IMG/VR virus record: IMGVR_UViG_3300049740_001071 | Span: 1 to 37,872 of that record | Reading direction: 5' to 3' (one strand) | DNA: 37,872 nucleotides | Source: a virus | Part shown: in pieces, positions 16,868 through 37,872 of the stretch | Numbering within the stretch: the first letter of the stretch is position 1 | Layout of the letters: each line of letters begins with the position of its first letter | Notes under the pieces: generated by a model | Told to the model about the DNA's origin: nothing | Databases searched by the model: none | What the model saw: only the letters and a program-made list of their open reading frames with translations | Made by a program: the position numbers and the translations under genes

Positions 16868-18403
16868 TTAGAACTCTACTACGATCTTAATGTCTTCAAT
16901 TTGGTCGCCAGCACGGGAGATTGCTCTCCTATTGTCTATGTAGATGACTTTTCCAGAGTCCTTTTTCACCTCGGATTTGGCGTAACCAGAAGTGAAAGAC
17001 ATACCTAAGTCATACTCAGTGTTATTAATAACACGAGTTGCTTCACCAGGTACGATAGGGAAGTTAATATCAGGGTCGGCAGAAGTACCAGAACCTGAAC
17101 CAACAACGGTGTTACCACCATCAAAGACTGTTTTATTACCAGAGATTTCAGGGAAGATACCGTCAACTCTGTTTTGGTAATACTTAAGAACTTTTGTTGT
17201 TGAGTTCCAAGATACAACTCGACCTCTAGCAGTCACTTGTTGACCACCAACAGTACGAGTTTGAGTAATAATTTCGTCAGTATTAAATGAACCTGTGAAA
17301 TCTGGCGCGAAAATCACAGCGTTAGTAGCAGACAAAGTAATAGCGTCTGCCAATTCTTCAGTACCATACTTCAGAGGATTCAGAACCAAACCGATACGTC
17401 TGTAATCGTTATCAGTTGGGAAATCTCCAGAACCTTCATCGTATGTGAACTTAGTGTTGATCATAGTACGGAACCCACCCAATTCAATTTGGGGACCTGA
17501 ACCGTGTCCACCTTTCGGAGGAATGATAACGTCGATAGCACCACCAGATCCAGTACCAGCACCGATACCGTTAATCTCATCAATGATGACTTTACCAAAG
17601 GAATAGTTGGCACCACCAGAAGTTACAGTAGCAGAGACGATACGACCACCGTCAACCACAACAGATATTCTTCCACCAGTTCCATCACCTTTGATTGGGA
17701 TGTTCTCGTATGTACCGTTGTTATATCCAGAACCTGCAGATTGGATAACAACAGTGTCAATCTCACCACCAACAGCGTCAGACACAACAGCAGTATCAAT
17801 CAACACAGGCATATAATCACCTGAGAAGAATTTCAGTACCTGACCCACAGGGATCGTGTACATATACTTCCAACGATAACCGTCAGCAGTTGTGATAATA
17901 GATGTAGATGTACCTGTCGGTTCAACCGTTGATGGTTTACCGTTAGGATCACTTGGTGATGTTCCATTGTAAATGCACTTATACGTTTGATAAGATGAGT
18001 TAACAACGTAGAAGTCAGCATCATACAGTTTGGTAGCACCAGACGATGCAGTCTTACTGGATGAATAATCGTGACGATACATATCGTACACATAACCCAA
18101 ACCACCAGTGGTTTGCTCGGGTGGGATCCAGTCAATACGACGAATAACCTGAACAGCGTCGTTCGCAAGAACACGCTTCATCGAGATCATATCATCGAAT
18201 GAATCAGAAAACTCTTGGAAAGAGTCAACGGGGGTCGGAGGGTTATTCTCGTTATCCCATTCCTGAGGACGCCCAATGTACACATACAGACGATCTCTGT
18301 TTGCACCAGCAGCTATGTCACTCTGGTTCTTGTCAGGACCTTCCAGTGATTTGATGAATTTTTCCGCAGTAAAAATTCTAAATTGGTCAGTGAGTAGTGC
18401 CAT
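16868..18403 (-). CDS. 8: Baseplate wedge protein gp8 with inserted modules
   Basis: The product (511 aa) is longer than T4 gp8 (334 aa), but the ends match. Residues 11-50 contain FTAEKFIKSL, GPDKN and YVYIGRPQEW (T4 has GPDKNTIFITFGRSEPW), and residues 484-511 contain KVIYIDNRRAI and QIEDIKIVVEF (T4: EMIYMENRPPI, TEEINILFTF). IGLVLNPLKYG at 337-347 matches T4 ISIITNPLEAK. In T4, gp8 is a dimeric wedge component linking gp7 and gp10. Two insertions explain the size: a GxGY-type module at about 212-305 (SAGSGYNNGTYENIPIKGDG), closely similar to one in the giant protein, and a GSFNTDEI...RVVSWN module at about 370-410. A late promoter and an AGAAGG ribosome-binding site precede the ATG. Confidence 0.9.
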   Translation of the reverse strand: MALLTDQFRIFTAEKFIKSLEGPDKNQSDIAAGANRDRLYVYIGRPQEWDNENNPPTPVDSFQEFSDSFDDMISMKRVLANDAVQVIRRIDWIPPEQTTGGLGYVYDMYRHDYSSSKTASSGATKLYDADFYVVNSSYQTYKCIYNGTSPSDPNGKPSTVEPTGTSTSIITTADGYRWKYMYTIPVGQVLKFFSGDYMPVLIDTAVVSDAVGGEIDTVVIQSAGSGYNNGTYENIPIKGDGTGGRISVVVDGGRIVSATVTSGGANYSFGKVIIDEINGIGAGTGSGGAIDVIIPPKGGHGSGPQIELGGFRTMINTKFTYDEGSGDFPTDNDYRRIGLVLNPLKYGTEELADAITLSATNAVIFAPDFTGSFNTDEIITQTRTVGGQQVTARGRVVSWNSTTKVLKYYQNRVDGIFPEISGNKTVFDGGNTVVGSGSGTSADPDINFPIVPGEATRVINNTEYDLGMSFTSGYAKSEVKKDSGKVIYIDNRRAISRAGDQIEDIKIVVEF

Positions 18404-20316: not shown

Positions 20317-21990
20317 TTAACGAATATCGAGGGTTCCTAGCATTCCACTATGGATTGTGCACTGGTAATACAATGTACTAGGTGCATCCATAGGAACTGT
20401 GAATGATTGCATACCTGTATTTGAACCAGTAATACCTGTGGTATATGCAGATCCACCTGATGCAGTTCTAATTGCTAGTGGATGTGCTCCTCCTGCTTGG
20501 TTGTGGAGATCATATGTAAATCCACGATAGAGAACAACAGTAGGACTACTGGTTCCACCTGATGCAGGAAATCCTGGTCCTGATACTGTGTAACTGCTGC
20601 TGCCAGCAGCAGTAAATCTGAACAGGATACAAGGAGAGGGTTTATGAATTGTGGCGTTATTATATCCCTTAATAATTGATGCACCTGCAGGAGCATTATT
20701 GATCTGAGATTGGAATCCTCCACCAATTTCATTGAAGGTAGTACCATCGTTTGCAACTTCCAACTCACCATTGGAACCAATTTTCATTCTCTTGGTTCCA
20801 ATTTTGATCTCAGTATCAGTAGGAAGTTCTAAGTTATTAGAAGCATCAAACTTTAGTTTCTTAGTTCCACCAGATCCGAAACGAATTTCTGCAGTATCTG
20901 GAACTTCAAGGTTACCACTTCCATCAAATTTGATTGATTTAGCAGCATCACCGCCAAAACGGATGTCAGTACCAGTAGGAAGATCCAAATTACCACTACT
21001 GTCCATAGCAATGACTTTCGTAGACCCACTATCACCAAAACGAATAGAACTGTTTGAAGGAAGTTCAAGGATGTCATTACTAAATTTAAGTTCTTTACCT
21101 GCAGCGAACTTCAGTGATTGTCCACCCAACTCAATGTTGCCTCCTTCATCCTCAGAAACCATACGGTTGTAGGATGTAATCTTGACAGCACTAGAGACAG
21201 ATAATTCTTGTGACTGATCAGCACCTGCAGCAGTTGTTGTTATATAGCCACGTGCTCCACCATTCTCAGCAACGAAGGAAGCAAACATAACTGTTGCCTT
21301 AGCACCAGTTGCATCTTCAATGTTGAGTTTAGTACCAACTTTCATTAATGAGAATCTAAGTCTAAACTTCTCTTCTTGAGTAGAATCTTCAGAAGCAAGT
21401 TTTGATGCAATAGTTCTGGTAGCACCAGTGTCAATACTATTAACAGTATGCTCTTGTCTCTTTCTACGATTTAATTCTTGTGTTACTGTGTCAGTAGAAA
21501 TACCAGTATCTCCCATCCAAATGGTGGATGTATCAAGGTACAAGTCTCTGAATTTCAGTGAGGGTGAACCTAGATCATAGGTTGCATCCGAGTTTGGTAG
21601 AAAATGAGTGTCAATAACAACGTTACCCGATCCGTTGTTAGAAAGATTAGTGATCGAAGAACCACCGCCTCCACCACCTTGTAGATCATCACCTGCTTGC
21701 CAACGAGCATTTGCCTCGTTCCACTTCAGAACTTGACCGTTACTGACACCGCTAACATCAATATCGGTAAGATTGGAAACAGAAAGTTGACCTTCAGTGA
21801 ATACTGAACCATTCCATTTTAGAACCTGATTAGTTGACGGACTTCCGACACTAATTTGCAGATTAGTATTGTCTCCAAGATAGGTGTATAACTCATTAAT
21901 AACATTGTTGAGTTTAATAGCACCATCTCTTAAGGTATCACCAGTGCCATCGTTTGCCGATACACCAATGTTAAGATTTTGCTTAGCCAT
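20317..21990 (-). CDS. gp10-like N-terminus with repeat stalk and C-terminal cupredoxin-like domain (557 aa)
   Basis: Residues 1-41 (MAKQNLNIGVSANDGTGDTL, then RDGAIKLNNVINELYTYLGD) align closely with the start of T4 gp10 (MKQNINIGNVVDDGTGDYLR, KGGIKINENFDELYYELGDG), the part that anchors gp10 to the baseplate wedge. Two VLKWN motifs follow, then a helical or mixed region (about 175-270). From about 280 to 420 there are four short tandem repeats, such as LDLPTGTDIRFGG and LEVPDTAEIRFGS, that would form a beta stalk. The C-terminus (about 460-557) looks like a cupredoxin: His503 (AHPLAI), Cys544, His547 and Met550 (YYQCTIHSGMLG) give the type-1 copper pattern H...CxxHxxM. A virion pin or fibre is likely. 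The copper site is inferred from the motif only. A late-promoter-like octamer lies just upstream. Confidence 0.85.
   Translation of the reverse strand: MAKQNLNIGVSANDGTGDTLRDGAIKLNNVINELYTYLGDNTNLQISVGSPSTNQVLKWNGSVFTEGQLSVSNLTDIDVSGVSNGQVLKWNEANARWQAGDDLQGGGGGGSSITNLSNNGSGNVVIDTHFLPNSDATYDLGSPSLKFRDLYLDTSTIWMGDTGISTDTVTQELNRRKRQEHTVNSIDTGATRTIASKLASEDSTQEEKFRLRFSLMKVGTKLNIEDATGAKATVMFASFVAENGGARGYITTTAAGADQSQELSVSSAVKITSYNRMVSEDEGGNIELGGQSLKFAAGKELKFSNDILELPSNSSIRFGDSGSTKVIAMDSSGNLDLPTGTDIRFGGDAAKSIKFDGSGNLEVPDTAEIRFGSGGTKKLKFDASNNLELPTDTEIKIGTKRMKIGSNGELEVANDGTTFNEIGGGFQSQINNAPAGASIIKGYNNATIHKPSPCILFRFTAAGSSSYTVSGPGFPASGGTSSPTVVLYRGFTYDLHNQAGGAHPLAIRTASGGSAYTTGITGSNTGMQSFTVPMDAPSTLYYQCTIHSGMLGTLDIR
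20320..20630 (-). other. Cupredoxin-like domain, copper ligands intact
   Basis: This stretch encodes the last 100 or so residues of the gp10-like protein. A strand pair FTYDLHNQAGGAHPLAI supplies a candidate His ligand (503). The C-terminal strand YYQCTIHSGMLGTLDI supplies Cys544, His547 and Met550 in the order and spacing of plastocyanin-type proteins, where YFCxPHxxxGM is typical. The chain ends right after the last strand, as free cupredoxins do. Confidence 0.7.
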
Positions 21991-22014
21991 AGCGGTGGGG
22001 TTTTTCTACAGTTT

Positions 22015-22022
22015 TATTTATG
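22015..22022 (-). promoter_or_regulatory. Late-promoter-like octamer upstream of the gp10-like gene
   Basis: The minus strand reads CATAAATA, fitting the NATAAATA form of T4-like late promoters with one difference from TATAAATA. It overlaps the stop codon of the upstream YHYH gene and stands about 25 bases before the ATG at 21990, in the only gap in this part of the cluster. Its position matches the two perfect copies elsewhere in the window. Confidence 0.65.
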
Positions 22023-23757
22023 TGAGGTCGAACTCAAAATTAGTCAAGTCAAATCTAACGTTCGATGTAGTGAAGTCGGGATTGTTATTATCCCTATCAA
22101 AAGGAACGGCGGTCATATCGTATCGTCCTATATTACTATCCCATTTTAAAACACCTGATGTATCTGTACCACTGGTTCCACCAGTGACAGTTAAGATACT
22201 CAGATTAGATGCTAGAGGTGAGTTTAGTGCCTGTTGAGATTCACCAACAGGACCTATTAGCACTACTCTATATCTATAACCAGTCATATAAGATAGTGCT
22301 ACCAAAGTGTAAGTATTTGAAGTAGCACCAGTAATATTAGACCAAGCAAACCCACCATCAGTAGAGACCTGCCACTGATAATTTATAATTCCTGCTTGCG
22401 GTTGGACTTCTGCCAGAACAGTGAATGTTTGTGATCCACCGTTAGCAATAGTTGCATTGGTCGGTTGACTGTTAATAATAATATTGGGTGGTTCAGTATC
22501 ATCACCACCACCTGAATCTCCTCCTCCACTAGATGACTCTTGTTGGATACCTTGGTTTGCAGGAACATTAACCTGCTGTTTTGATACTAAACCAAAGATG
22601 AATGGAAATTTAGGTTCATAACTCATATCTGCGATCACAGTACCGATCGCATTGTTCGCCATACCTGAGTGATTCAGGCAATAGTAATATAGATTTGCAG
22701 GTGCATCTTGGGGTACTGTAATTACAGTTTTAGCACCCGCCTGCCCAGGAGTTCCAAAATATGTTACTCCTGAATTGTATTCTGTACCTAGGTTCCAAGG
22801 TCCGTTCAAGGTTGCTGAGATACGAATATTGTGTGAAGCGTTTGAGGGATCTGACTGATCAAATGTATAGGTAGAACCTTTGGTAAAGGTTATGTCAGGA
22901 TATAAAACGCCATCAAGTCTGTATTTGTTGCCATCACTTTCTGCACTAACAGTGACAACATAAGTCTTATCATCCGAAAGATCGTCGTGAATCGACATAA
23001 AGTACGCAAAGGTACCATTCGGAAACTCGGGAGTATGACAATAACGCCCGTTATATGCATCAAGATTTCTTCCAGTTATATCAGCATTGTATTCATAGTC
23101 TTGAATAAATGCACCTTTAGGGTATGTTGAATCATATGCAGGTCTATTGACAGCAATCTGATCACGCATCTTATACCCTGTGACCATAATTTTAACCGCT
23201 GATGTATTATCAGTCGGGTTATCATATCCATATGGTCCGTAAATAGGATACCCGTCAAAGCAAAAACCGATGATCTTAGAGTGACCATCAGGGTGACGCA
23301 TATTGTCACTTTGATATTGAGTAGAACCGTAGTAATCATTATAGTTTGACATTACCTGATTTGCTTTCCAGCAGTTCAAGAAATGCGAATCACGATAATG
23401 ATATTGTCCTGTGGTTTCAGGATAACCTCCACAGTTGTCTTCACCAAAGTCAACAGCAGTGTTTGTTGCTGATCCAACCCAGTTAAAACCCTGTGGTGGA
23501 GTGCCATCTGGACCACCTGAGGCATTGTAGATAGCAACACCGTTAGCACTGATACCAACGATCCCTACAGGAAGTGTTCCTGAAGCAACTGTGTCATCTC
23601 CACCTCTATATGTAAAATTATGTGAGAAAGTATATGATGTAATTGTATTAGAATTATCACTATTCGGGAAAGTACCAGAAAGCACAGGCGTTGGAAGACC
23701 ATTACCTGTGATAGTCAGAACATCTGTTACTGCGTTGTACTGTCCGTTTGCTGCCAT
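22018..23757 (-). CDS. YHYH + cupredoxin + Ig-like virion protein (579 aa)
   Basis: Residues of about 20-260 look like the YHYH family: GQYHYRDSHFLNCW (117-130), GFCFDGYPIYGPYGY (164-178) and CHTPEFPNGTFAYFMS (240-255). The name-giving motif reads YHYR here. Residues of about 285-375 form a cupredoxin-like domain with SHNIRIS (His309) and YYYCLNHSGMAN (Cys360, His363, Met366), the plastocyanin arrangement. After a Gly/Ser linker (407-420), residues 425-525 are an Ig-like domain (INSQPTNATIANGG, INYQWQVSTDGG) close to the C-terminal domain of the giant protein. The last 45 residues contain VLKWDSN, like the neighbouring gp10-like protein. No signal peptide is seen, which fits a virion component. 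Proteins of the YHYH family are of unknown function. The ATG overlaps the stop of the preceding gene by one base. Confidence 0.85.
   Translation of the reverse strand: MAANGQYNAVTDVLTITGNGLPTPVLSGTFPNSDNSNTITSYTFSHNFTYRGGDDTVASGTLPVGIVGISANGVAIYNASGGPDGTPPQGFNWVGSATNTAVDFGEDNCGGYPETTGQYHYRDSHFLNCWKANQVMSNYNDYYGSTQYQSDNMRHPDGHSKIIGFCFDGYPIYGPYGYDNPTDNTSAVKIMVTGYKMRDQIAVNRPAYDSTYPKGAFIQDYEYNADITGRNLDAYNGRYCHTPEFPNGTFAYFMSIHDDLSDDKTYVVTVSAESDGNKYRLDGVLYPDITFTKGSTYTFDQSDPSNASHNIRISATLNGPWNLGTEYNSGVTYFGTPGQAGAKTVITVPQDAPANLYYYCLNHSGMANNAIGTVIADMSYEPKFPFIFGLVSKQQVNVPANQGIQQESSSGGGDSGGGDDTEPPNIIINSQPTNATIANGGSQTFTVLAEVQPQAGIINYQWQVSTDGGFAWSNITGATSNTYTLVALSYMTGYRYRVVLIGPVGESQQALNSPLASNLSILTVTGGTSGTDTSGVLKWDSNIGRYDMTAVPFDRDNNNPDFTTSNVRFDLTNFEFDLT
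22630..22890 (-). other. Cupredoxin-like domain, copper ligands intact
   Basis: It spans residues of about 290-376 of the YHYH protein. Strands KGSTYTFDQSDPSN and SHNIRISATLNG give His309. TPGQAGAKTVITVPQDAPA leads into YYYCLNHSGM with Cys360, His363 and Met366. The HN dipeptide after the first ligand strand and the YYC strand are hallmarks of plastocyanin-like proteins. Confidence 0.75.
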
Positions 23758-32900: not shown

Positions 32901-35900
32901 TTCAGCGATGAAGCGATTATTCTTCACAATCGCTTCAGCAGCGTTATTAGCACGAGTATCGTGTACTGTTCTGATAGAAGAGTTACCGAAGTAGATCTTC
33001 TTAAGTCTGATATTTGTTCCAGGTGCAAAGTCATTACCAGTTAGACTGTCGTAACGAATCTCTTGGTTTCTAACTGCTTCGAAATCTAGGAAGTCTTGGT
33101 TGTTAGTTGTCTCAGGATCGTATAGTTCAGTTGGGTTAATAACAGTTTCACCGATGTCATCAAGAATGACGTTCGGGAATGTGATTGAAGGAACTCTCTG
33201 GAAGACAAGAGCAAAGAAACTAGATGAAGGTGAAAGGTCAACAGTATCGATAATCTGATTAGATATTTCATCCTGATAAGGTGAGATAGCAGAAACAGTT
33301 GCTGCAATGTTAGATCTTGCAGAGTAGATTATGTCATTGAACTTGATCTCAAATTCACCAGTTTCAAACTTAGAAGTACCAGATGTTCTAGAAACAACCA
33401 GAGAGGTATTGATGTTACCTTCATCAAGGTTGTTCTCCTCAATGATTGCAAACTTACCAGATAAGTTAGTAACTCTCTCACCCTGTTCAAAGATTGTCTT
33501 AGATGAAACTGGGAAGATACCACCAGTTCCTTCTCCAGAATCACCGATTCTAGAGTTAAATCCAGTAGCACTGTTAAGAATAAATTCGCCCTCTTGGAAT
33601 CCTCCGCTTGGTCCGTTCTCAATATTAAGAAGGTCAATGTAGTCAGTACCAGAATCCACAACAATACCAGTTGCTTCAGAGATAATACCTCTGACCCTGT
33701 TACCAACTAAGGGGAAGATACCACCGAGTTCAGAGAACTGAACACGAGTAATTAAAAGTTGAGTGAATGTAATATTTCTGAACTTAATTCTAGAAGGTGC
33801 CTTTGGAGGTTCAGAGAATACAATAGAAGGACCTGCTGTAGAGAATGAATCTCCAGGTGCCTGTGCGACACCATTAAGAAGAACAAACATCTGATCTTCA
33901 GTCGCAGTAATAGAACCACCCTCAACATTCAGTGGGAATTGAGTTCTGATACCATCAAAGTCTTCGGAAATGTTATCAATCTTCTTAACGATAGAAGTTA
34001 GAATTTCCTCAGAGTTAGTAAGTCTCTTCTGTCTGAATAGGACTTCAGTGTTATTAAATTGTGTGTATATTGGTTGTGCGTTAGCAAATGATGTAATCTG
34101 GTTAATATTAGTGAATGCGTTGATATTAACTTCTTTAACAAGATCAGATACAACCTTTCTTCCAGAAATATCCTTACCACCAGTGATTGATAGTTCACCA
34201 AATAGGTTGAATCCAACAGGGTGGTTTGTTTCTAGTACAGGTTTTCTCCACTGGTTGATAGGTGTTTCAGACTTAATAACGTAGGAGAAGTTCTGATAGA
34301 AGTAACTATCTTGAATTTTCTGAACGATTTCAGATGGTTTACCAACGTCATCGATAAACTGACCTGGAGTATTAGTTAGTGAGTCAATATTAAGAGTACC
34401 ACGAGCGATTGAAAGGTTATCAATCAAACCAGAAGCACGAGAAACTTCACCAGTTACACGCTCACCTGGGGTCCAAACACCGTCATAGTTCTCAAGTTTA
34501 AGGATTCTAGGTCCAATCTGCCAACCTTGGTTAGTAGAAACATAACCTGTAGCAGATGCAAGTTCAAGTGAAGAACCTTGATAAACAAGTTCACCTTCTA
34601 AGAAACGAGATGTTTCAACGATAGCAGTTGCTTGACCACCAAACACTTCGGTTAAGAGAATCTGTCTACCTTCACCTTGTGTCAAGAATGTGATGTAAGA
34701 ACCAGATTCAGCGTCAAGTTTAGTAAGTGAGATTCTAAGTTGGTCAGATTCAAGACCATTTGCCTCTCCAGCAATAGCATAGTAAGTCTGAGTAGAAGAT
34801 AGACTGACCAAACCAGCAGAACTTGGTTTTGGTAGAATACCAACTGTAGATCCAAGATCTTCTGCTCTCAACTGGATTTCAGCACCAGTCGTAATACCGT
34901 GTGGGAAGTTAAACTGTAGGTAACCGAGGTCAATGTTAACAACGTAGTTAAATTCTGACTTAAGTGTGACTGAAGGTTCAGAACTGTATCCTGCACCAGG
35001 ATCTTTGATGATAACTTCACTAAGACGATTATTCTTAACGATCGCTTCAGCAGCAGCACCTGATCCACCACCACCAGAAATAACAACAGCAGGTGTAGAG
35101 GTGTAACCAGAACCAGGGTTTGTGATCTTGATTTCTGCAAGAATAGCGGTATTAAACAACTGAAGGTTCACTGGGAAAGTGATTTCAGGTCTCAAAGTAT
35201 AGTCGTGAGAATAACCGAAACCAAATTCGTTGTTCTTAAGTTTCTTGATACGTCCGATACTCTTACCTTGTAGGAATACAGAAGCACCTGAACCTTCAGA
35301 AGGAATCACAACATCAAGAATACCACCTGAACCAGCAAGTAGAGGTCCAAGAATTCCAGAAATAGAGTCAATATCTATAGATGCTGTTGTATATCCTTTA
35401 CCAGCAGAGGTTAAAACAACGCTAGTGATAACACCAGTGAAGTCTCCATCATCAGTAACAGTGATATTACAACTTGCACCTTCTCCATCTCCTGAAATAG
35501 GTACGTTATAGTACACACCATTAACATATTCAGTACCACCATTGGTGATACGAACCTTTTCAATCTCTCTGTTAGACGCAATATCAGTAACGATAGGTAA
35601 TTTCTGATAGAATCCACCTGGATTCACCAATTTAATGGTTGAAATAGGTCCAATTGCCTTAATTGATGTTGTAGAGTAGATAGAACGTGGAAGTCCAAAC
35701 TCATTATTGCCTACAGGAGCGTTAGATTTCTCTGGTTCAACAAGAAGTGGGAAGTCAAACTCCAATCCATCACTAGAAACGTTAGAAATAGTGAATGTTC
35801 CTGCATAAGGAGACTGAATAACGTCAATAAATGATCCCTCACCAACAGGAGAGTTGTCTGCTGAGGTTCTAGATGGGTCAAAGTAGTATGAGATGTTAGT

Positions 35901-37872
35901 AATATCTTCATTGATGATAAATTTAACCAACGGAGTCGGTGAATCATCATCAGTAAATCCAGGTGTACCCTCTCTAATGATGTTAATGAATGGATATTCC
36001 AGTTTATACTGGTTATCTCTAGAGAATGACAGGAAGTATCCAAGGTTAGAAGGATCGTCAAGGTCAAAGAGATACTGATGTCCTCTAACAAATAGGAACT
36101 TAGGATGCTTAGCGTAGATATTAATGTTAGAAACAGAAGAACCTGTACCTGAGAAGGTAGGATCCTGAACAGCAGTGCTTCTTATACGGAATGTGAAGTC
36201 TCTACTAGTAAATATTTCCTCAACAAAGAATGAACCGTTATATTCATTAGTAGCGAATCTCTCAGTAAAGATAATATCATTTACTTCATAGTTGTGTCTG
36301 CTAGTAGCAGAGCAGTAAACAAGGTCAGTATTTGTTAGTGCTTGTGAAGGAACAACGTCTTTATTGAGTTTTGCCTGAAGATTGAATTGTTTAACACCAA
36401 CAAGACCACCAAATGTTGCAATCTTACCAGTTGCATCTACAGCAAATGTCAAGTTAACAGCATCAGCATCAATGGTGTCTCCTTTAATAAAGGTGGAGTC
36501 AGCATAGATCTGTTGAATTCTAATAGTATAGTCAGCAGAATTGAAAGGTTTCCAAGATGCAAATGCTGCAAGAGTACCAGATCCGTGAACACTGTTCGCC
36601 AAATCTACTTGGAATGAACCTGCAGTCGATGTGAATGCCCAGTTGATATTACCATCAGAGACAGTACCTGATGTGTGTACAGGAGCAACAGCACCTGCAG
36701 TAGCAGTTGTACCAGATGTATAGATCTTACCGTTACTATAAACAACATCACCAACTGTATAGTTCTGATTTTCCTCCCAAACAGGAGTTGTGGTAAGAAC
36801 GGTGAACTCTTTGTCCATCTCGTTCACATCACCAACAGTTGATTTTAGAAGTTTAGAGGTATCAAACGTACCAATAATCTTACCGATCTTACAAGAACTT
36901 GTTCCAACCTCAACGACAGTACCGTATGCAGATACAACATCATTACCACCAATCACAGAATACTGTTGAAGTATTGACCCTTTAGTAAAGGTAGCATTCT
37001 GATTGAATGTGAGTGTCTTAACAAGGTCAATAGTAGAGTATTTTGCATCTCTAATATAGAACTTAGGAATAACCTTAGTAGTAAGAAGCAATTTCTTACC
37101 ACCCTGTGTAGGAATAGTTGCAGTTCTAGTTGCGTATGACTGGTCAGTAGATGTAACTGTATAAACTCCAGGGACGTGGGTTGATACAACATCTGAGTAA
37201 TCAAGGATCTGAATACCAGCAGGACCTATTAACCAGGGGTTAACAGCAACCGACTGGGTATTAAACGTATAACTGCTGCTGGCGGCGACGTTTATGGTAT
37301 GTCCTGTCTCTACATCATTCAGGGTGAATGAACCAAGTTTTGTCTTATCTTTGTCAATCTTATAAATGAATGCTTTATCAACTGAGTTTGTTCCAGTAAC
37401 AAGACCAGCAGTGAATGCATCTATGTACTTAGCAGAAGGTGTAACAACAAAGTTGTCAATCCAACCGATCCAGTTGTTAGTAGAACTTGGAGTTGAGATA
37501 GGACCAAGTGTTGCCTGCATCATATTAACGTCAACAGTAGCACTGTTAACTGAATGTGCTTCTACACCATTAATGTAGATACGATAGATGTAAGAACCAA
37601 CTCCAGGGCGTTGCTTAGAAATAGCAACGTGAACCCACGCTTCAGAGTTAAATGTAGTCCAGAATGTTGTACCAGTAGAATATGAGGTAGATCCATTAAG
37701 ATCAAGGAAGATCTTACCGAAATTAGCACTACCTGAAGTACCATCGACACCAACCTTGACTTCTTGAGTTAACTGAGAGACAATACCGAAGAATTCTGGG
37801 TTAGATGCCTGTGCAGCATATTGAGTATTGCCAAGAGCAAACCAACCTTCCATTGTCCACTCAACACTAATA
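23958..37872 (-). CDS. Giant modular virion protein with gp7-like region (partial, 5' end beyond the window)
   Basis: The frame is open to the right edge. The six codons before the first ATG (37853) read ISVEWT and complete a LamG-like strand (EWTMEGWF), so that ATG is internal and the gene starts outside the window; at least 4637 residues are present. Parts in order: LamG-like domain (nt 37410-37872); degenerate cupredoxin-like domain (35815-36095); GxGY/GGGGSG repeats (34960-35660); a T4 gp7-like motif (KSETPINQWRKPV, HPVGFNLFGEL; 34190-34300); NGVxQxPG repeat (33770-33950); helical repeats A and B (32250-32965); second LamG (31145-31630); helical repeats C-F (29190-30985); five YPR repeats (27960-29125); HTFVSA repeats (27530-27960); Cys-led helices; two more NGVxQxPG repeats (24770-25250); Ig-like C-terminus (23985-24295). 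Position before gp10/gp8 fits gene 7 (1032 aa in T4), here hugely expanded. Calling it gp7 is inference. Confidence 0.82.
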   Translation of the reverse strand, partial: ISVEWTMEGWFALGNTQYAAQASNPEFFGIVSQLTQEVKVGVDGTSGSANFGKIFLDLNGSTSYSTGTTFWTTFNSEAWVHVAISKQRPGVGSYIYRIYINGVEAHSVNSATVDVNMMQATLGPISTPSSTNNWIGWIDNFVVTPSAKYIDAFTAGLVTGTNSVDKAFIYKIDKDKTKLGSFTLNDVETGHTINVAASSSYTFNTQSVAVNPWLIGPAGIQILDYSDVVSTHVPGVYTVTSTDQSYATRTATIPTQGGKKLLLTTKVIPKFYIRDAKYSTIDLVKTLTFNQNATFTKGSILQQYSVIGGNDVVSAYGTVVEVGTSSCKIGKIIGTFDTSKLLKSTVGDVNEMDKEFTVLTTTPVWEENQNYTVGDVVYSNGKIYTSGTTATAGAVAPVHTSGTVSDGNINWAFTSTAGSFQVDLANSVHGSGTLAAFASWKPFNSADYTIRIQQIYADSTFIKGDTIDADAVNLTFAVDATGKIATFGGLVGVKQFNLQAKLNKDVVPSQALTNTDLVYCSATSRHNYEVNDIIFTERFATNEYNGSFFVEEIFTSRDFTFRIRSTAVQDPTFSGTGSSVSNINIYAKHPKFLFVRGHQYLFDLDDPSNLGYFLSFSRDNQYKLEYPFINIIREGTPGFTDDDSPTPLVKFIINEDITNISYYFDPSRTSADNSPVGEGSFIDVIQSPYAGTFTISNVSSDGLEFDFPLLVEPEKSNAPVGNNEFGLPRSIYSTTSIKAIGPISTIKLVNPGGFYQKLPIVTDIASNREIEKVRITNGGTEYVNGVYYNVPISGDGEGASCNITVTDDGDFTGVITSVVLTSAGKGYTTASIDIDSISGILGPLLAGSGGILDVVIPSEGSGASVFLQGKSIGRIKKLKNNEFGFGYSHDYTLRPEITFPVNLQLFNTAILAEIKITNPGSGYTSTPAVVISGGGGSGAAAEAIVKNNRLSEVIIKDPGAGYSSEPSVTLKSEFNYVVNIDLGYLQFNFPHGITTGAEIQLRAEDLGSTVGILPKPSSAGLVSLSSTQTYYAIAGEANGLESDQLRISLTKLDAESGSYITFLTQGEGRQILLTEVFGGQATAIVETSRFLEGELVYQGSSLELASATGYVSTNQGWQIGPRILKLENYDGVWTPGERVTGEVSRASGLIDNLSIARGTLNIDSLTNTPGQFIDDVGKPSEIVQKIQDSYFYQNFSYVIKSETPINQWRKPVLETNHPVGFNLFGELSITGGKDISGRKVVSDLVKEVNINAFTNINQITSFANAQPIYTQFNNTEVLFRQKRLTNSEEILTSIVKKIDNISEDFDGIRTQFPLNVEGGSITATEDQMFVLLNGVAQAPGDSFSTAGPSIVFSEPPKAPSRIKFRNITFTQLLITRVQFSELGGIFPLVGNRVRGIISEATGIVVDSGTDYIDLLNIENGPSGGFQEGEFILNSATGFNSRIGDSGEGTGGIFPVSSKTIFEQGERVTNLSGKFAIIEENNLDEGNINTSLVVSRTSGTSKFETGEFEIKFNDIIYSARSNIAATVSAISPYQDEISNQIIDTVDLSPSSSFFALVFQRVPSITFPNVILDDIGETVINPTELYDPETTNNQDFLDFEAVRNQEIRYDSLTGNDFAPGTNIRLKKIYFGNSSIRTVHDTRANNAAEAIVKNNRFIAEEAVGRMLAFYPSFTIPTGSANCEDDIVDMLNLIAWQLEHDGNSEVWDAANFYVQNNTVYHVGGQEAQTVYAMNAARDLANQCINMVNITTEHTTLSQWKDLTITPEYEVVSNSHGDARTLLLANKWYIAYEALHYAKTQNPGYNVSGGDEHCLSDIVDVIEALAYNVAHGGNDFIWEATDRILHYGVTSGDRDTIVNSFTKAKAMSLDIMRNIAVTKVGSHGWNQVTISITADTASPTCQAVAAAITTLMDILITNLGTTASPGTRAAFQAAVTSTAPQADYSQGRTTIPNVNACVAQTSAVANFFKIVTDTLQDPTGANPATYQWSISNVPRIAPAYTFTEGETIRSIKHSYKDKSSGGFFNFGQTLKGISSGAVAEIIGTNAGSKWAYTKGVTGAFTTAEYITNSTITYNNVTVDKLNPGTGTGSLDFSGTSSRINHASNAAFAFGTGDYTIEMWIYPTTVSGTQRLIDFRTASSSSAGSIFLQGTSLKFGIATTDHITAAGAIPNANQWYHIAISRASNVTKLFVAGQQVGSDYTDASDYGNSPISVGASWNNGETFTGNMDNLIIRKGTASYSSGFIPPTVYDFRALDISFGFNGEAPFPIELSAVYATYEQTIISSANADGVELWREEIMTEEVDVSRDAYRDCGDIIYKNRYWIAEEAVGRMKAKYPAFNIPGDTGTSTQGTDKCIRDTHSFIIPAIIDDLKLGGNYHTIVAGRGYLEGSGALKHINGELLQSIYTWREVGKICNDIITKDATDLTGEYTNRIRVPNYFASPAASTITGFISDLIDNMLEVMSPTGHRFRDGADLLYFNRGVIADEAVSMMEQEWNVMVNFIQIDKIDIPSREKCVRDIRDHIVPAVAGDLITGGNSNIQGMIDSYLDSQSNINYIEHELLAMLDALEHVKFLANKALQNLLVGRNENIANIVGTTPNTIDDFYQLQYSDLTAYRKEYDATVNYDLTGSVITESTFYPPDPKIFQGSHRALDSANIIERNARTIAAEAVDIVTKTSAFKHYNFRVPGGKVHCEDDIVDFINSVAHDLRFSSNSEVYDAAALYLNTDMGLSHVTGQSQETIYAYKMARDMSVLAIRNKLGFTPFEDVSAGGGGGNAIGGGVPRGDYDSNATTNKDYDAGNEILNNMRFIASTAVGRGYAQYPNLTFGGYGYQSCIDDVIDILEAMAWNLKHGGNNKVWYATEFYITDANAIQHINSQATEVKYIFEQARDIAIEVMRQQLVNVNGYTEGYPQYDNGITIDSSSSTTGQLTPTNATYNAATGDLVLTKTGHGLVTGDAVQIATYALKFTCDFDSNQSEHTYPRPLDPSNGALLPVTSSNSSTFTVNVGTTSNVNYDVTNAIYNETTGDMFLDIGSNTLDVGRHVKLPDNAVTFTCTKDGNATNHSYPRATDYASGKSLTVLEIGDSEFTATNAAYVPATGVLTLTVPNHGFANGDNVQIVSNSLNFTCDMDNNYTVHSYPRVSDPAANKYLPIGNVATNTFTVNVGTTGTVNFTPSNVAYNPVTGLMILTLGNGHGLVTGSHLKIQPNSLTFTCEEDDNATNHSYPRTTTTTHTVTDAAYNGTSGIMTLTIPQHGFSNGDQIKIADNGVTFTCAQDGDGSNHAYPRSSDPASGSWLEISNVTANTFKVQVLLSDGIPSTNVTAHTFVSATSGGVTWKKDRAYDVPLEVTAATATTVTVNVLASGRTPSTNTTSHTFVSATPNAISAGGNYTHTFTSAVANGIKFKNGRIKVNVNPSPSSEQYPHTFVSAVSNAVQGGGNYNHTFVSSTTNSISWITGGGGATRCATQASAITTLMGITVDLFNSGTSNPQNYIDGISRTLPGEWPLTGERAAVRDLTITYDQAGSGACNVESSTISSLFDIVIGIVKDAAAGNGSYFTNQGISRNAPVLNNTLLFGGGVCYNVTSASNILFDLLEDTLGSAPEMYRQASRILSINDLYINREAYYKTVNQYSGYTGDQTFGDIIRKAYIYDLLTDSNAKTIELINTWFDAEGNFVAFPNIFRTYLIFHATATTDMITHILSGTAPEPGTYNFEPLYKDREMRPTMTAVHKIQQLWHLVYTALAESKLPTVYLKQTIDVGVDVNSDGSISKNNHPFEAYDRVNYTVLGTNIVELDRESYYIHPDTTSSKIYLAEYIDGDKLTSLTPGLPGEIHTLAIARETGINRIPTTYGDRIIPTPTSGGIEPADIFYGTSSGAYAEVIRIQDNLAAVNYKVKYLPITVTSSGTPFTNGEMIVKTGASANTGKIIATDNSTYIKVEMTGGDFIASDNIEGITTGATATVNAGIHDRALVNFKQGEFIATDILYSKEDTGKANALIVRNNDGSLVDNQSGRITYDIETVVGEFAPNDVIYGSVTDQIIEVEAFTLLPGFGEYIHSTEITSFVYAGLITDTGVTDTFQVGDVLQLQNSGQSVGHTFVVTEHDLDNNTIFLANETGRFVSIGDNLSSIANDSAYQLAKIPPGSNFPSVYTSGITQVNITTTSAYGKIEKIQQIGLRLIIHLGDTSGTFLKNAQIIGDAGFRAACSVAKTLRGRVKRFFRGFDGVQQNFKLTQQNGTAYFPDPAGHMMIFVNGILQPPGGNNAYTAFSDNIQFTEAPAVGSTFHGVYVGKLRQLDDISFDFDSLRNSFNLKLGGVFYSLTLTDGVQSNTILPENNIICQLNGVIQEPGIGFEIVGSRIIFSEVPRAGSTFVAFSYIGSDVDVIAATVVPPIESGDILQIEGEDETREVALIESSNSLITFEYSGAVKGRNGDALAIIEKGRVTEAILTNSGDGYDSRPNVDVISSSGFGARIKALVGLARVDVKNAGQGYAQPTINVNTTVPDNFFAPSGVGVNGGIDIYDPNYVPPGQDQAQGEQAIVIESQPVNTTVNQGQVASFTVIASTNPAGGSITYQWQKKNYGESDWNNVNGATSPTFTSPATTQADGGDEFRCGLTAAGATPTLSNAAILTINIGATTVDNFTPDQIFDDN
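23985..24295 (-). other. C-terminal Ig-like domain of the giant protein
   Basis: The segment contains VIESQPVNTTVNQGQVASFT, ITYQWQKKNYGESDWNNV and a late-strand cysteine (EFRCGLTAAG). These are the usual Ig-like features in phage surface proteins. It closely resembles the Ig domain at 22183-22485 in the YHYH protein, suggesting duplication or exchange between neighbours. Such domains are often exposed on virions and may bind host surface glycans weakly. Confidence 0.78.
27960..29125 (-). repeat. Five YPR repeats in the giant protein
   Basis: Five units of about 65-90 residues each contain a Y-N-x-x-(T/S)-G opening, a hairpin such as NHGFANGDNVQI, a strand with one cysteine (LKFTCDFDSN, VTFTCTKDGN, LNFTCDMDNN, LTFTCEEDDN, VTFTCAQDGD) and a closing H(S/T/A)YPR. 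At nucleotide level the units are related but diverged, so this is an old array kept by selection. The single Cys per unit and its acidic neighbourhood (DxDxN/D) could be a metal- or Ca-binding loop. Confidence 0.85.
29190..32965 (-). repeat. Six copies of a ~105-residue Cys-containing helical repeat
   Basis: Approximate spans of copies A-F: 32640-32965, 32250-32570, 30620-30985, 30140-30500, 29620-29955 and 29190-29515. Each has an opening helix such as VKNNRFIAEEAVGRM or YKNRYWIAEEAVGRM, a spacer, a CxxD(I/V/T) helix (CEDDIVDMLNLIAWQL, CLSDIVDVIEALAYNV, CIRDTHSFIIPAIIDDL, CVRDIRDHIVPAVAGDL, CEDDIVDFINSVAHDL, CIDDVIDILEAMAWNL), usually a GGN or xxN turn, and two more helices with an H(I/V) near the turn. 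A LamG-like domain separates copies B and C. I know no family name for this repeat. Confidence 0.85.

Follow-up and report, generated by a model that had tools for sequence, protein, structure and literature searches.

What is a set of residues of the kind found in type-1 copper sites doing in two neighbouring structural genes of a T4-like, marine cyanobacterial virus? The question is raised by the IMG/VR record IMGVR_UViG_3300049740_001071, whose whole stretch of 37,872 bases is called the window here, and in which the gene of a gp10-like baseplate protein and the adjoining gene of a YHYH virion protein both encode the pattern H...CxxHxxM. Reading sequences and predicted structures together, we consider it probable, with somewhat better than even confidence, that both proteins carry portable cupredoxin heads of baseplate and fibre proteins, which would bind copper, be stabilised by the metal and lie exposed. 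The features on which this depends are the following.

20317-21990, minus strand: gp10-like baseplate wedge / tail-fibre connector protein, 557 amino acids (aa) (PF07880 T4_gp9_10_N, 2.8e-10; phrog_677, 1.2e-66)
20320-20670, minus strand: predicted cupredoxin domain of the gp10-like protein, residues 441-557, at its extreme C-terminus (AlphaFold2, Foldseek, VIA)
20482-20484, minus strand: first candidate ligand of the gp10-like domain, His503, in register with a copper His of plastocyanin
20341-20361, minus strand: ligand loop C544-x2-H547-x2-M550, in register with plastocyanin ligands (codons of C544 at 20359-20361, H547 at 20350-20352 and M550 at 20341-20343)
22018-23757, minus strand: YHYH virion protein, 579 aa (PF14240, 2e-29; phrog_25852, 2.4e-136)
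22639-22980, minus strand: predicted cupredoxin domain of the YHYH protein, residues 260-373, between its YHYH and fn3-like domains
22831-22833, minus strand: first candidate ligand of the YHYH protein, His309 (SHN, where plastocyanin has PHN)
22660-22680, minus strand: ligand loop C360-x2-H363-x2-M366 (codons of C360 at 22678-22680, H363 at 22669-22671 and M366 at 22660-22662)

The original prediction had placed both open reading frames (ORFs) and named these eight residues, and both the places and the residues were found as it gave them, on the minus strand; the conserved first His of the gp10-like domain is indeed H503 and not H496. Moreover, the pattern is no accident of composition. Among the 14 ORFs taken as genes in the window, which add up to 12,423 aa, 0.008 occurrences of CxxHxxM are expected and 2 were seen, one in the gp10-like and one in the YHYH protein, which rules out a chance origin; the strong conservation described below supports the earlier interpretation.

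The two domains, of about 115 aa each, are homologous: whichever of them seeded the iterated profiles, the search of the window and the first 95 loci converged on the same 156 ORFs, the union being 156 as well. In the joint alignment, reduced to 27 clusters at 85% identity, each ligand column was kept in 26 of the 27 clusters; one cluster lacked H, C and H together and another lacked only M.

Predicted structures point to a known fold. The AlphaFold2 models, the fold searches and the profile of the 183-domain survey given below all rest on three alignments (A1-A3), picked by hand from the 66 distinct domains of the first loci with the ligand-losing rows left out, and thus on rows with intact ligands. 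The gp10-like domain was modelled with a predicted local distance difference test score (pLDDT) of 90.5 and a predicted template modelling score (pTM) of 0.81, and the YHYH protein's domain, modelled over 22612-22980, with 88.0 and 0.83. With the gp10-like model, all 34 matches found by Foldseek in the Protein Data Bank (PDB) at E<=0.001 were cupredoxin-fold copper proteins, headed by amicyanin 2idq (E 1.0e-4), and VIA-align gave a Z of 10.5 to 2dv6_A, the N-terminal domain of a Hyphomicrobium nitrite reductase (root-mean-square deviation (rmsd) 2.3, 93 residues aligned). The model from the YHYH protein found the copper nitrite reductase 6tfo_B as its best Foldseek match at E 2.1e-3, with none at E<=1e-3, and 47 of 50 rows among the matches listed were cupredoxin-fold copper proteins; its VIA-align Z to 2dv6_A was 8.7 (rmsd 3.1, 104 aligned), slightly above the 7-8 that is typical of VIA for models without a clear match, and all 50 rows listed were of the cupredoxin fold. 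The layout of a type-1 site, an early His followed by Cys-His-Met, is found in both domains, and in the gp10-like model C, H and M (model positions 104, 107 and 110) lie at or after the strand 99-104 and before the last strand, 111-116. On the strength of these models the cupredoxin fold is close to certain for the gp10-like domain, whose cupredoxin-like model goes against the refuting case named by the original prediction, a structure that is not a Greek-key cupredoxin, and well supported for the domain of the YHYH protein, where homology backs it.

How near are these domains to plastocyanin, to which they had first been likened? Sequence-only profile searches of the PDB listed cupredoxins as 9 of 17 and 10 of 16 chains, with best E-values of 0.02-0.04 and the remainder unrelated, and a phmmer comparison of the YHYH protein's domain with plastocyanin 1fa4 gave E 0.68, non-significant alone, with H, C and H in register. 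Against a plastocyanin profile built from 17 sequences of the PF00127 family (phages, a Prochlorococcus, a Halobellus and a gammaproteobacterium), hhalign gave local E-values of 0.0017 and 0.0033 (probability 15% and 10%) and global ones of 0.00064 and 0.0014 (probability 11% and 7%); in the global alignment each domain has its four ligands in line with the plastocyanin ligands, at probabilities of 7-11%. What stands of the likeness to plastocyanin is therefore a predicted cupredoxin-like fold with four ligands in register, and what does not is the loop, which reads C-x2-H-x2-M and not C-x2-H-x4-M. Weak PF00127 (Copper-bind) matches were found in 14 of 46 relatives (best E 0.0037), the window member not being among them. 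One fibre copy of P-SSM2 reaches 20.5 bits on PF00127, whose cut-off is 21.2, and matches Cupredoxin 1 (4hcf) at E 0.0014. An assignment of the domains to PF00127 was dropped, since the scores lie under the gathering cut-off. The NCBIfam models gave no cupredoxin on the window proteins, nor an amicyanin match at E<=1.

A plastocyanin captured by the phage and still carrying electrons while the host is infected, in the way of the auxiliary gene petE, might also leave such a domain. In fact, a separate plastocyanin-family gene is frequent in the same phages: of 9 named phage records 7 have it above the cut-off, as do the contigs G001-G003, and its presence in many of the phages that have the tail module means that the module is not that gene. 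The domains described here are fused to baseplate and fibre proteins, have another loop length and are too diverged for Pfam Copper-bind, and we regard the electron carrier as a very improbable explanation. The phage of the window has such a gene too, outside the window at G001:C1:124114-124365 (PF00127, E 2.6e-20). An origin of the domains from the phage's own petE was considered and is not supported, given the different loops and the weak profile match, though the four ligands are in register.

The site was also followed in searches anchored outside the domain. A stretch of 76 aa from the gp10 N-terminus served as one anchor; among the best 80 of 269 loci, 8 proteins were cut at the locus end and 72 were complete, 47 of them distinct, and all 47 end in H...CxxHxxM. 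The frequent loss of Cys or His in close homologues, which had been named as a sign against the site, was thus not seen in the gp10-like protein. With the YHYH domain as anchor, 10 of 30 distinct proteins carry the domain, all 10 with the motif, and a ligand-less version was never seen in the 30. It follows from these counts that gp10 keeps the site strictly, within its group, and that YHYH proteins have either the whole module or none of it.

Across the wider family, 327 matches were reduced to 183 distinct near-full-length domains, the window included, by dropping those that cover less than 65% of the profile. The ligand set is nearly all-or-none: four ligands are kept in 150 of them, three in 6, two in none, and one or none in 27; in 94 representatives the corresponding counts are 72, 4, 0 and 18. 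The six domains with three ligands have Lys or Gln in place of Met, or Phe in place of His. Where a residue is present, the columns of C, the second H and M rank first, second and fourth in conservation, and the first His falls outside the top 16, because the ligand-less rows carry another residue there. Rows gapped at the ligand loop come, in 24 of 25 cases, from a single kind of baseplate protein, about 1,380 aa long, that adjoins gp10 in one phage group, so the 27 ligand-poor domains are not independent. Two features of sampling bear on these figures: the four ligands are invariant in the 46 rows of alignment A2, but ligand-losing rows had been left out of it by choice, and four of the locus scans used patterns containing ligand residues (two of them among other patterns, two with such a pattern only), for which reason counts from those scans favour intact sites; the searches anchored on the gp10 N-terminus and on the YHYH domain did not use such patterns. 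A tree of 157 domains (kept from 399 matches, 249 of them distinct, after dropping near-copies and coverage below 60% of the profile), made after removal of the first-His and loop columns, requires 10 or more changes of ligand state against a mean of 27 when states are shuffled; the starred branches alone force 5. It is poorly resolved, having few columns and 75 of its 154 inner branches open. Repeated joint gain or loss of the ligands is what a single metal site predicts.

A metal site in these domains is very likely, and copper is likely to be the metal. A disulfide as the role of the Cys is disfavoured by its being the lone Cys of the domain in 69 of the 72 representatives with all four ligands; the gp10-like domain of the window has two, C454 and C544. 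Perhaps the site holds zinc, or copper only as Cu(I), or is purely structural, so that copper redox chemistry has no part in it. Zinc is far more available than copper in the cytoplasm. The metal reported for tails in the accessible text of PMC11705849 is iron, in HxH sites. Yet two His, a Cys and a Met on a cupredoxin-like fold make up the ligand set of type-1 copper, and the Met, which zinc would not need, is found in 75 of 78 representatives with a residue at its position; we hold this alternative to be unlikely.

The placement in the virion was the second part of the earlier claim. The window is near-identical to a contig of 181,945 bases (99.98% over 13,001 bases and 100% over 1,601 bases compared), and its closest named relatives are phages of Prochlorococcus and Synechococcus, with which it shares about 70% DNA identity across no more than 51% of the searched stretch. 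It holds a minus-strand T4-like structural block with a tail sheath stabiliser, head-closure and head-tail adaptor proteins, large structural proteins, gp8, the gp10-like protein and the YHYH protein. Two further features are needed here.

16868-18403: gp8, two genes downstream
21757-21984, minus strand: T4 gp9/gp10-type N-terminal domain (PF07880), residues 3-78 of the gp10-like protein

With 41 bits on PF07880 (cut-off 25) and gp8 nearby, the gp10-like protein belongs with the T4 gp9/gp10-like connectors. The domain is linked to the virion because of phrog_677 and PF07880, because gp8 lies two genes downstream and because many isolate carriers elsewhere are annotated as baseplate or fibre proteins. 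The claim is supported as regards an association with baseplate and fibre proteins, with the qualification that YHYH proteins may have or lack the entire domain (10 of 30 have it).

On the reading we favour, a mononuclear cupredoxin domain with His, Cys, His and Met and a loop of amicyanin length would be an accessory head on the phage baseplate, forming the C-terminal end of the gp10-like connector and, in its neighbour, lying between the YHYH and fn3-like domains. Family and gene order suggest that it is assembled into the virion. It would bind copper, probably loaded from the host or, once the cell has lysed, from seawater; by locking the loop end of the domain, the metal would give a stiff exposed surface for fibre docking or host contact, and electron transfer would not be needed. 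The simplest use that fits both the carriers and the strict conservation in gp10 would be that of a head, stiff and exposed, on connector and fibre proteins.

The domain is a recurrent one in marine phages. At E<=0.001, a search for the gp10-type domain matched 331 of 50,697 phage records, nearly all of them cyanophages (by name, 252 Synechococcus, 54 Cyanophage, 19 Prochlorococcus, 3 Marine, 2 Pelagibacter and 1 uncultured), and the YHYH-type query found 145 phage records, 4 of them of Methylophilales phages. Many of the isolate carriers are annotated as baseplate or fibre proteins; they include baseplate connectors, proximal tail fibres and a putative fibre of Pelagibacter phage HTVC028P, along with an unnamed protein of the Autographiviridae phage P-SCSP2, and several are annotated as hypothetical only. 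Neighbouring domain-bearing ORFs form 55 distinct pairs, of which 51 carry the motif in the one ORF as well as in the other. Two length classes are the most frequent, with 16 pairs each: one joins 500-599 to 500-599 aa, the arrangement of the window, and the other 400-499 to 1,300-1,399 aa, that of S-SM1.

Two further explanations were weighed. The first is a redox switch, in which copper would be reduced or oxidised at the host surface and so help to trigger a rearrangement of the baseplate or the release of fibres. The domain does sit on the connector between baseplate and fibre, the genes that bear it are often paired, most carriers infect photosynthetic hosts, and type-1 sites are redox centres by nature. 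Nonetheless, no partner, potential or conformational coupling is known, Gln or Lys replaces Met in some relatives, and the domain also occurs in an Autographiviridae phage, a family without a contractile baseplate, so that we find such a switch rather unlikely. Its fullest form, in which the baseplate copper of marine T4-like phages changes state at host contact and helps to trigger opening or fibre release, is doubtful further still; if this were true, infection would depend on trace copper in the sea. The second is a metal bait: a copper-loaded head may dock on host surface proteins for copper uptake or handling, as a copper counterpart of the iron Trojan horse. The marine setting and the tail proteins agree with this, as does the iron precedent proposed for HxH sites of tails in the accessible text of PMC11705849. 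However, no receptor is known, and the carriers are phages of Synechococcus, Prochlorococcus, Pelagibacter and Methylophilales, hosts that need not have a copper receptor in common; we rate the bait as decidedly unlikely.

Several points weigh against the copper-stabilised head. 1- PF00127 matches no window protein at E<=1 (cut-off 21.2 bits), with none in its own record, and the profile probabilities of the window domains against plastocyanin are low (7-15%). 2- The gp10-like domain holds a second Cys, C454, beside C544, as few relatives do. 3- In 20 of the 30 YHYH proteins no domain is recognisable and it is dispensable there, with the limit that the locus ends within 4 of the 20, in L393 before a domain could have been recognised and in L387-L389 after 1,035 aa. 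4- Ligand-less copies occur in neighbouring structural proteins, so the fold can serve without metal. 5- The 55 pairs were drawn from loci found by the same domain and are therefore a biased sample. 6- Phage assembly is cytoplasmic, where copper is scarce.

A ligand-less copy and the remaining domains of the YHYH protein complete the picture of the window.

35802-36242, minus strand: third copy of the domain, a weak match without ligands, residues 538-684 of a structural ORF of 4,631 aa
22993-23565, minus strand: YHYH domain, residues 65-255 of the YHYH protein
22237-22470, minus strand: fn3-like domain, residues 430-507 of the YHYH protein (PF00041, 20 bits, under the cut-off of 25)

The third copy was recognised by a match of the A2 profile in the near-identical contig G001 (E 3.1e-4) and by a local search (0.0015), and it has no CxxH. 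The YHYH domain has His residues of its own (H120, H125, H155, H159 and H241) and, from its sequence, may bind metal there. In 16 phage records that hold the domain, chosen for having matches so that 16 of 16 is no prevalence, 44 places were located and 43 read, the place left unread being G002:39354-39680; 28 have the full motif, 2 have CxxH only and 13 have none. P-SSM2 has four copies, all with the full motif, and cyanophage PSS2 two, both ligand-less. A class of variants (L070:4790-5248, L128, L173 and L216) reads WCHxH, with Gln or Lys for Met and an extra His beside the Cys.

Outside these phages, the gp10-like model matched proteins of giant viruses in BFVD, among them 'beta-sandwich' proteins of Pithovirus and Marseillevirus, together with a Fadolivirus protein named 'blue type 1 copper protein' (E 2.3e-4). 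Cellular carriers were found as well, namely marine gammaproteobacterial proteins that end in the domain (L107, L109, L110, L115 and L116). In both of those scanned, L107 and L116, it is preceded by cadherin/Ig domains, an adhesin-like context. Several of the five have a lipobox-like ACGGGG start, as judged by eye.

Should copper be bound at these sites, common viruses of the ocean would have a copper protein as a core part of the tail, and their particles might make up a store of protein-bound copper in surface waters. Copper would then join the metals proposed or shown in phage tails, such as the iron of HxH sites described in the accessible text of PMC11705849. It would also offer a simple handle on adsorption, by chelation or addition of copper or by mutation of the Cys. 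A redox fold would have found a second use, structural or adhesive, while its ligand-less copies show the fold at work without metal. The interpretation given by the original prediction is partly supported, with adhesion, stiffening and sensing, the roles that it suggested, as candidate functions; on our reading, cupredoxin copper sites would have been taken over as a portable virion module.

Among known systems, amicyanin (2idq, 3ply) has the same order of ligands as the gp10-like domain, and its spacing, which we take to be C-x2-H-x2-M as in both window domains, is shorter than that of plastocyanin. Amicyanin is a soluble periplasmic electron carrier, whereas the phage domain, at about 18% identity to it, is fused to a baseplate protein. 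Plastocyanin (PF00127, TIGR02656) shares the cupredoxin fold and the register of H, C, H and M with both window domains, yet it differs in its C-x2-H-x4-M loop, and the window domains, with C-x2-H-x2-M and fused to baseplate proteins, are not plastocyanins. The best superposition for both was with the N-terminal plastocyanin-like domain of the Hyphomicrobium nitrite reductase (2dv6, 6tfo, 6tfd), which is part of an enzyme, while Pfam finds no enzyme domain in either phage protein. With the T4 gp9/gp10 connectors the gp10-like protein has its N-terminal domain in common (2fl8, E 1.8e-5, residues 3-50); sequence search found no counterpart of the C-terminal cupredoxin domain in T4 gp10.

From the literature on related phages, the accessible text of PMC7029224 lists YHYH domains among the putative receptor-binding parts of pelagimyophage structural operons, and the words 'cupredoxin' and 'copper' were not found in that text. 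For S-SM1, 41 virion proteins are given in the accessible part of PMC3037559, and for S-PM2d adaptive mutations in gp8 and short tail fibres are reported in that of PMC9910659, with no link to the domain established. No description of such a phage domain was found among the open-access PMC papers listed in the searches, a scope that makes this absence weak. A further parallel is with the HxH iron sites proposed, in the accessible text of PMC11705849, for T4 gp37 and marine tail fibres, those of cyanophages included. The HxH motif itself is found in neither the gp10-like nor the YHYH protein when all His positions are compared. In both cases a metal site would be built into a tail protein; here it would be formed by two His, a Cys and a Met within a single domain.

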